From an uncultured Cryomorphaceae bacterium (GTDB taxonomy: Bacteria; Bacteroidota; Bacteroidia; Flavobacteriales; Schleiferiaceae): 64,000 nt of DNA. Below are positions 52,027 through 52,567 of this stretch, piece after piece (position 1 is the stretch's first letter; every line of letters starts with the position of its first letter). The notes under the pieces are model-generated. The model had not been told where the DNA came from, ran no database searches, and saw nothing but the letters and a program-made list of their open reading frames with translations. The stretch is taken from contig CAKZJV010000007.1 in the NCBI GenBank assembly GCA_937120475.1, positions 1,504,068 through 1,568,067 of the forward strand, written 5' to 3'. The position numbers and the translations under genes were made by a program.

Positions 52027-52115
52027 TGGTGCCCCAGGCGGGACTTGAACCCGCACGAACATTGCTGTTCACGGGATTTTAAGTCCCGCGTGTCTACCAA
52101 TTCCACCACCAGGGC
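52027..52115 (-). tRNA. tRNA-Leu (anticodon TAA)
   Basis: The minus strand gives acceptor GCCCTGG pairing with CTGGGGC, a D-arm containing GGTAGACAC, an anticodon loop CTTAAAA (anticodon TAA), a long variable arm (GTGAACAGCAATGTTCG) and a T-arm GGGTTCAAGTCCC, with CCA encoded. The length of about 89 bases and the variable arm are typical of tRNA-Leu. Fragments of its 5' half are repeated to its right. Confidence 0.9.
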
Positions 52116-52185
52116 TGGTGATTTAAATTTATTTTACTTCCTTCACCCTTTACATCACTGCCTGCGGGATTTCCCGCGTGCCATG

Positions 52186-52229
52186 CCTACCGCAAGGTAG
52201 GTCTACCAACCTGTCTGCCGACAGGCAGG
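52186..52229. repeat. Palindromic insertions within tRNA-Leu-derived unit 1
   Basis: A 16-base hairpin with a GCAA tetraloop (52186-52201) and a 20-base nested palindrome (52210-52229) are inserted either side of TCTACCAA, where the intact tRNA has none. The second has the same nested design as the elements at 18681, 18760 and 19315. Confidence 0.75.
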
Positions 52230-52314
52230 TTCCACCACCAGGGCTGGTGATTTAAATTTATTTTACTTCCTTCACCCTTTACATCACTGCCTGCGGGACT
52301 TCCCGCGTGCCATG

Positions 52315-52358
52315 CCTACCGCAAGGTAGGTCTACCAACCTGTCTGCCGACAGGCAGG
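52315..52358. repeat. Palindromic insertions within tRNA-Leu-derived unit 2
   Basis: An exact repetition, 129 bases downstream, of the two palindromes of unit 1, showing that the insertions preceded the duplication. Confidence 0.75.
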
Positions 52359-52465
52359 TTCCACCACCAGGGTAGCTCCGCAATGCGGATTGTTTAAGGT
52401 GGTAAAGTTATAAGGTTTAAGGTTTTCTGCTAAATAGTCGTAAAACAAACCTCAAATCTTAAACT

Positions 52466-52487: not shown

Positions 52488-52494
52488 CAAGCTG

Positions 52495-52567
<73 letters not shown>

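Follow-up and report, generated by a model that had tools for sequence, protein, structure and literature searches.

Hairpin-split tRNA-Leu copies beside an intact tRNA gene in a Cryomorphaceae bacterium, and similar broken tRNA copies with GIY-YIG ORFs in other bacteria

Anatomy of the tRNA-Leu array

The window analysed here is a stretch of 64,000 nucleotides of contig CAKZJV010000007.1 from an uncultured Cryomorphaceae bacterium. Read on its minus strand, tRNA-Gly(GCC), two 129-bp units and tRNA-Leu(UAA) follow one another in this order. The first-pass annotation had described a 129-base tandem repeat of tRNA-Leu at 52101-52372 beside an intact tRNA-Leu, with units made of tRNA-Leu 5' parts that are interrupted by two hairpins at the same sites in both; the repeat and its intact neighbour were confirmed by Tandem Repeats Finder, ARAGORN and alignment, and the composition of the units by alignment. 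By Tandem Repeats Finder, a single array was detected in the whole window (52101-52372, period 129, 2.1 copies, 99% match), and a repeat search recovered the same two copies at 100/99%. The lowest 14-15 bases of the array 52101..52372 are the 5' end of the intact tRNA-Leu(UAA) itself. The features of the locus are the following.

52027..52115, minus strand: intact tRNA-Leu(UAA), a paralogous 'empty' version of the broken copies (ARAGORN; Rfam tRNA 57.2 bits)
52101..52372, minus strand: tandem array of broken tRNA-Leu 5' copies, 2.1 x 129 bp (Tandem Repeats Finder, repeat search)
52116..52163, minus strand: 48-nt spacer from the broken copy to the intact tRNA-Leu, without a GIY-YIG ORF (sequence reading)
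52164..52180, minus strand: nearer unit, tRNA 24-31 plus CCCGC, a mini-hairpin of anticodon-stem and/or T-arm origin (alignment; sequence reading)
52181..52201, minus strand: nearer unit, hairpin insert 2, CCTACCTTGCGGTAGGCATGG, imperfect, between tRNA 23 and 24 at the 3' end of the D-loop (alignment)
52202..52209, minus strand: nearer unit, tRNA 16-23, TTGGTAGA (alignment)
52210..52229, minus strand: nearer unit, hairpin insert 1, CCTGCCTGTCGGCAGACAGG, between tRNA 15 and 16 in the D-loop (alignment)
52230..52244, minus strand: nearer unit, tRNA 1-15, acceptor strand to D-loop (alignment to the intact tRNA)
52293..52309, minus strand: distal unit, mini-hairpin piece, 1 base off the nearer unit (sequence comparison of the units)
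52310..52330, minus strand: distal unit, hairpin insert 2 (sequence comparison of the units)
52331..52338, minus strand: distal unit, tRNA 16-23 (alignment)
52339..52358, minus strand: distal unit, hairpin insert 1 (sequence comparison of the units)
52359..52372, minus strand: distal unit, tRNA 2-15 (alignment)
52494..52567, minus strand: tRNA-Gly(GCC), the upstream neighbour (ARAGORN)

When the nearer unit was aligned to the intact tRNA, positions 1-15 were followed by 20 nt, positions 16-23, 21 nt and positions 24-31. Both joins are clean, with zero tRNA bases lost and no target duplication, in support of the earlier view that palindromes were inserted into tRNA-derived sequence. The unit is laid out as CCCTGGTGGTGGAA, a 20-bp palindrome, TTGGTAGA, a 21-bp imperfect palindrome, CACGCGGGAAGTCCCGC (or ..AAATCCCGC) and the spacer, so the palindrome sizes first given as 16 and 20 bases have to be corrected to 20 and 21. 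One base separates the two units (CACGCGGGAAGTCCCGC versus CACGCGGGAAATCCCGC) and the inserts are identical in both; since the same inserts are present in both units, the insertions preceded the tandem duplication, the order that had been proposed at first reading. The final piece of the unit had been called a shortened anticodon stem. This is one possible reading, but the mini-hairpin may equally consist of the 5' strand of the anticodon stem and the 3' strand of the T-arm, since both arms read GCGGG../..CCCG.

Empty sites are available for comparison both in the adjacent intact tRNA and in the two congeners (n=2 genomes), where tRNA-Gly and tRNA-Leu(UAA) stand side by side with a spacer free of fragments. 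That the repeat is an assembly artefact deserves almost no credence, given that the units differ by one base, that the assembled contig spans 3.04 Mb and that further cases occur in the same genome and in others.

Broken tRNA copies and GIY-YIG ORFs at other tRNA genes

By a flank search with each tRNA of the genome and by reading, broken copies were found at about 9 of some 40 tRNA genes (43 tRNA-model matches, 40 over the cut-off), which are Leu-UAA, Leu-CAA, Leu-TAG, Arg-TCT, Arg-CCG, Asp, Ala-GGC, Gly-TCC and, by eye, Asn. At tRNA-Leu(CAA), the adjoining 5' part has the acceptor sequence of that tRNA, and two palindromes of similar type interrupt it at the two sites used in the tRNA-Leu(UAA) copies. 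The palindromes vary among the copies (CCTGCC..GGCAGG, TCCCGA..TCGGGA, CCCCGAG..CTCGGGG, TCCCG..CGGGA). Fragments upstream of a tRNA are 5' parts and those downstream are 3' parts, and at Ala-GGC a degenerate 5' part may stand before the 3' part. A 22-nt match to tRNA-Met, about 950 nt off its gene and in the opposite direction, was excluded as a broken copy. Two more tandem tRNA-Leu(CAA) 3' ends with a terminator, each preceded by TCCCGAGCGCAGCCGCGGGA, were seen in L002 (1780-1920), and tandem tRNA-Asp 5' parts with the TCCCGA..TCGGGA hairpin in L125 (1806-2344, period 84, five copies and one partly masked) and L117 (1877-2192, period 139, three copies).

Partial tRNA direct repeats beside intact tRNAs are the textbook mark of tRNA-integrating elements, and the 3' parts downstream of several tRNAs of this genome would suit scars of a tyrosine-recombinase ICE or a phage that uses tRNA genes as attachment sites. 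We nevertheless regard such an origin as very improbable, because the window repeats are tRNA 5' parts rather than 3' ends, the spacers measure only 48 bp, and elements of this type would not be expected to leave palindromes at fixed slots.

The first-pass annotation had overlooked a wider arrangement, seen with GIY-YIG ORFs that adjoin tRNAs, of which the broken copy is an example. At tRNA-Asp of the same genome, a small GIY-YIG ORF sits between the broken and the intact copy, with its ATG start in the broken copy and its stop inside the intact tRNA. Like this Asp locus, the congener G001 has a GIY-YIG ORF between broken and intact tRNA-Arg(TCT), and in the congener G002 a GIY-YIG ORF is flanked by two tRNA-Asp 3' fragments. 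The Arg-TCT locus was compared in four genomes, three of which have the ORF; the window's own genome has broken copies without it. The exact palindrome stands between GGATA and GAGC in two Arg-TCT records (L159, L195), and the CAGG found at this slot in the window's genome is read as a probable leftover of the palindrome. Among the approximately 9 tRNAs with broken copies in this genome, an intact ORF adjoins tRNA-Asp only, so broken copies may arise without the ORF. Separately, an apparently decayed GIY-YIG ORF was noticed between tRNA-Val(UAC) and tRNA-Val(GAC) (L114 1366-1834, G000:C7).

The tRNA-Gly(GCC)/tRNA-Leu(UAA) pair of the window recurs in both congeners, and in two other genera of the family (G028 and G017) it recurs with an ORF, the order there being tRNA-Gly(GCC), tRNA-Leu(UAA), GIY-YIG ORF, broken 3' tRNA-Leu. 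The pair is therefore one that such elements enter, there on the 3' side: the ORF of G028 and G017 lies 3' of tRNA-Leu, and the window fragments lie 5' of it. The broken T-arms of these two genomes read GCGGGTTC/CCCGC and GCGGG/AAGTCCCGC, both of which fit a break between C56 and 57, and the window mini-hairpin GCGGGAAGTCCCGC resembles the GCGGG/AAGTCCCGC T-arm. Throughout the window's family, 21 of 30 GIY-YIG loci are within 500 nt of a tRNA (same strand, 21/21; with a broken copy, 20/21), where the 30 loci are those examined among 41 matches, three being the query proteins' own loci and at least 3 of the 30 also belonging to the 80 relatives described below. In the PDB, the nuclease matches best the UPF0213 proteins 1zg2 and 1ywl, followed by the structure-specific nuclease SLX1. 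As to a role in defence, PADLOC gave only partial matches, to PDC-S14 over 26 residues.

By scanning genome contigs with an alignment of three tRNA-adjacent GIY-YIG proteins as the query, 297 relatives were obtained, of which the best 80 were kept; both choices bias the sample toward close relatives of the query proteins. In this best 80 of 297, drawn from many phyla, 60 relatives have a tRNA gene no more than 500 nt away, the nearest tRNA being on the same strand in 60/60, and 20/80 have no tRNA within 500 nt. At a limit of 600 nt, 61 loci were available, and a second, broken tRNA copy exceeded the threshold in 51/61 and was lacking in 10/61; with reversed tRNAs as the null, 1/165 flank pieces reached the threshold. 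Three relatives are in viral contigs, two of them beside a tRNA. Cultured hosts in the set include Pedobacter soli and Pedobacter cryotolerans, with the ORF at tRNA-Arg, and Aquimarina macrocephali and Roseivirga sp. E12, with the ORF at tRNA-Asp. The link between GIY-YIG ORFs and tRNA genes is strong. In one Poribacteria locus (L142), a GIY-YIG ORF was seen near several tandem tRNA-like copies of undetermined anticodon.

The broken copy stands across the ORF from the intact tRNA at 46/61 loci. Counted by aligned copy, with the ORF 3' of the tRNA 22 of these copies retain the 3' end, 3 retain both ends and 1 an inner part; with the ORF 5' of the tRNA 16 retain the 5' end, 4 both ends and 1 an inner part. 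Among the 27 cases with the ORF on the 5' side, the ORF stop falls within the intact tRNA in 12. Another 28 copies are on the side of the tRNA away from the ORF (ORF 3': 14/20 5' end only, 3 3' end only, 3 both; ORF 5': 5/8 3' end only, 2 5' end only, 1 both). Copies upstream are mostly 5' parts and copies downstream 3' parts, with the ORF between or not, so that fragment polarity fits insertion with regeneration and plain partial tandem duplication alike and does not discriminate between the two.

A tree of the nuclease was built from the first 68 residues, cut ahead of any tRNA-coded tail, which leaves few columns. On this tree, tRNA isotype required 21 changes, where 300 shuffles gave 38.4 on average and never fewer than 33, and phylum required 20 against 20.9 (minimum 19), a test with little power given the weakness of many forks and the share of Bacteroidota among the phylum-labelled rows (50/71). 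The division of Bacteroidota versus the rest required 12 changes against 18.4 (minimum 13), showing that the host also marks the tree and is not irrelevant. The nuclease tree thus tracks tRNA isotype more than phylum.

Hairpin inserts and dispersal of the palindrome

The inserts between tRNA pieces of the broken copies fold well: 42 inserts average -0.232 kcal/nt, whereas their shuffled versions average -0.104 and pieces drawn at random from these loci -0.053. Folding was used because a stem score anchored at the ends, which 6/43 pass, is too stringent where hairpins are bulged. From 43 rows, 29 insert sites were kept by merging two inserts at one slot of a locus and by dropping those with less than 50% pairing, those outside 16-140 nt, register artefacts in L125 and ORF sequence in L193. 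Of these sites, 21/29 are in D-, anticodon- or T-loops (p 2e-5 for an expected share of 0.33), and when they were merged by hand by isotype and slot, 14/21 were in loops (p 0.0016). The chain aligner has no way of scoring joins where bases are gained and lost together, so the '0 lost' of its 43 rows follows from the method and gives no rate. Eight of the 10 T-loop inserts are located exactly between C56 and 57 as numbered by a simple ad hoc rule, and come from Gln, Arg, Ser, Phe and Glu copies of several phyla; a search for the strict T-loop insert pattern found it in 0/395 Bacteroidota genomes. Loops of broken tRNA-Glu and tRNA-Arg in L182 and L135 contain longer inserts, about 95-130 nt in size and with ends like CCCGCCCG..CGGGCGGG, which look like larger, MITE-type forms of the short palindromes.

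In tRNA-Asp copies, a hairpin occupies one slot (CTGTCA, hairpin, CGGGTTC or near) at 11 loci with 14 distinct sequences, and about 12 bases are lost there. The end-pair cells of these hairpins pair in 81/98 against 64.9 with partners shuffled (max 76; 16 copies of 21 rows, 5 that are not tRNA-Asp-like being left out), a count that is no independent test because the hairpins were picked for a stem of at least 5 pairs. Three of them begin two bases later, out of register. Selection for a hairpin and repeated insertion at a hot spot both fit this pattern.

The constancy of the Asp slot under changing sequence, the pairing count and the ORF stops inside intact tRNAs would be in keeping with broken copies that function as hairpin-bearing tRNA-like leaders, as RNA or single-stranded DNA, and that are recognised by the nuclease or control a transcript shared by ORF and tRNA. 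We consider this unlikely, in that the stems were preselected and three are out of register, many copies are partial with slots that vary by isotype, the fragments of the window's genome are mostly without an ORF, and different palindromes inserted repeatedly at a hot spot would look the same.

Palindromes confined to this locus would have spoken against the first description, but further sites are present elsewhere in the genome. Allowing up to 2 mismatches, CCTGYCTGYCGGCAGRCAGG had 18 forward sites in this genome (15 places by hand count), 2 in G001 and 1 in G002, and the reversed control had 0. Six of the 15 places in the window's genome have an intact tRNA no more than 300 nt away (p 9e-10 for an expected share of 0.0076), and the remaining places include other repeats. 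The exact palindrome is present in 6/148 genomes of the order, with one site each outside the window's genome, and none of these single sites in the five other genomes has a tRNA near it (0/5, 3-kb loci), nor has the one in the congener G002 (0/1, 2.7-kb locus). A general preference of the exact palindrome for tRNAs is therefore unsupported beyond the window's own genome, which speaks against a general rule. By eye, a clean 20-bp palindrome was seen at about 1501-1520 of L012 (G002:C38:14856-14875) in an IS3-type integrase ORF, whose frame it breaks without a target duplication. In L011 and L094, the palindrome is within a longer imperfect inverted repeat, which we take to resemble an integron attC-like site.

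Y1_Tnp genes were found in all three genomes of the genus, and the palindromes within about 1.5 kb of the six genes seen there include none of the CCTGCC..GGCAGG family. A RAYT as the mover of CCTGCC..GGCAGG is hence unsupported in the genus, the Y1_Tnp genes being flanked by different palindromes. Y1_Tnp (RAYT-like) genes with palindromes of their own nearby were noted in L080, L083, L081, L084 and L085 (GGCACGAGCGTGACGCTCGCGCC, AAGCGTAGCG..CGCTACGCTT, CGCGCGAA..TTCGCGCG, AGGCGTAGTTTGCAACTACGCCT). REP/RAYT repeats have a conserved 5' tetranucleotide tag (GTAG or similar) beside the hairpin. Such a tag is absent at the clean joins, where the palindrome is bare and the flanks differ, and the 18 sites in the genome with 2 and 1 in the congeners fall short of a REP-type high copy number. 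Membership in the REP/RAYT repeats accordingly fails on cognate RAYT, copy number and tag.

These data bear on the alternative that tRNA-Leu underwent a partial tandem duplication into which REP-like palindromes were later moved by a RAYT-type (Y1) or other transposase, with GIY-YIG not being the cause. The palindrome is dispersed and occurs at non-tRNA places too, among them the clean insertion into the integrase ORF of G002; insert sites favour loops, which could follow from hairpin formation in single-stranded DNA; most broken copies of the window's genome are without a GIY-YIG ORF; Y1_Tnp genes are present throughout the genus; and the fragment polarity is what partial duplication gives. 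On the other hand, the palindromes near the six Y1_Tnp genes belong to other families, the exact palindrome has no tRNA preference outside the window's genome, and the proximity of GIY-YIG ORFs to tRNAs, their strand agreement and the isotype-following tree are left unexplained. We regard this alternative as possible, if on the improbable side.

Possible origin of the broken copies and known systems

The explanation that we favour, and to which we would assign an equal chance of being right or wrong, is that a GIY-YIG element targeting tRNA genes left the array as a scar that has lost the ORF and to which hairpins were added before a tandem duplication. In the relatives, the ORF has the orientation of the tRNA, with the intact tRNA on one side and a broken part of it on the other. 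We infer that the nuclease would cut the tRNA gene and that the element would enter it bringing the missing part, by which a working gene would be regenerated. The left-over part carries palindromic hairpins, which are located mostly in the D-, anticodon- or T-loop and which may make it unfit as a nuclease site or a tRNA. The window locus would formerly have had the ORF, and its unit was duplicated once, after the arrival of the hairpins that both copies share. A role of GIY-YIG in making the window scar is likely, and the similar damaged copies beside tRNA genes of distant bacteria look like scars of a little-known tRNA-gene parasite.

This explanation by a GIY-YIG element is supported by the anatomy of the array, the fragment-free congeners, the second case at tRNA-Leu(CAA), the ORFs at tRNA-Asp and tRNA-Arg(TCT) in the genus, the ORF at the same tRNA pair in two genera, the strand agreement, the frequent broken copies at the relatives' loci, the isotype-following tree and the preference of the inserts for tRNA loops. 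Against it count the lack of an ORF in the window, the intact ORF at tRNA-Asp only among the tRNAs with broken copies in this genome, the 3' placement in G028 and G017, the polarity that does not discriminate, the relatives that are not near a tRNA (20/80) or have no broken copy (10/61), the biased sample, the host signal in the tree and the 0/395 outcome for the strict T-loop pattern. The 48-nt spacer 52116..52163, read by eye, contained neither a GIY-YIG ORF nor a recognisable remnant of one, although it is too short for a C-terminal relic to be judged.

In the way it works, the arrangement resembles a homing element whose target gene stays functional, and we call it putatively homing by this analogy. 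In the relatives the nuclease gene is lodged by its target (60/80; 21/30 in the family), an intact tRNA opposite the broken copy is retained in 46/61, for which insertion would be the cause, and the phylogeny follows the target (isotype, 21 vs 38.4); at the window locus, the place of an ORF is taken by the 48-nt spacer only. In a broader and more doubtful version, which we put forward tentatively, these would be minimal tRNA-gene parasites found across phyla, in which an isotype-specific GIY-YIG nuclease enters a tRNA gene, regenerates it and tags the leftover with a hairpin at its own site (T-loop between C56 and 57, D-loop between 21 and 22, or the anticodon loop in Asp), with the dispersed palindromes as its single-stranded DNA substrate. 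The hairpin would there fill the role that the intron has in intron homing.

In work on Neisseria Ssn, small GIY-YIG nucleases of the UPF0213 class reportedly act on single-stranded DNA and on dispersed inverted repeats. The present nucleases belong to the same small GIY-YIG class by their best PDB relatives (1zg2, 1ywl), and nuclease and dispersed inverted repeats of about 20 bp again occur together; we know of no tie of UPF0213/Ssn nucleases to tRNA genes. Rickettsia palindromic elements, of about 100-150 bp, are inside genes and in frame within ORFs. The palindromes described here are likewise inserted within genes, but they are 20-21 bp long and lie in tRNA-derived DNA. tRNA genes are also landing sites for large integrating elements, and partial tRNA copies by an intact gene are shared with those that attach at tRNAs, whereas here both 5' and 3' parts are found, hairpins lie inside them and the spacers are short and without an integrase.

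Free-standing GIY-YIG homing endonuclease genes of the phage T4 Seg/Mob type (PMC2988022) are similar in that a small ORF stands by an important gene that stays functional, and in that the tree follows the target over the host phylum. The present case differs in that the target is a tRNA gene, which is partly duplicated with a leftover split by hairpins, and in that the hosts are bacteria of many phyla, with 3 relatives in viral contigs, homing itself being putative. REP/RAYT palindromes, GTAG/CGTC-tagged repeats (PMC3733652), resemble the present ones as dispersed palindromes of about 20 bp inserted without target duplication; the palindrome here is of low copy and bare, and a cognate RAYT was not seen in the genus. 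Among the titles and abstract starts of open-licence literature, we recognised no description of broken tRNA copies with GIY-YIG ORFs, which is weak evidence of absence.

The first observation is confirmed as real and is broader than first described, and its interpretation is partly supported; the expectation that the locus would expose how this element family moves was disappointed, as palindrome movement is not revealed here. A very small ORF appears to live by tRNA genes in many phyla, where partial tRNA copies with hairpins in their loops are left. If the nuclease cuts there, this would offer a compact system in which to study gene-regenerating homing into an essential gene, and the recurrence in bacterial genomes of tRNA fragments together with GIY-YIG ORFs that end inside tRNAs would be explained. 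The paired broken and intact copies provide before and after sequences for how short palindromes move, a question that is shared with REP-like repeats.
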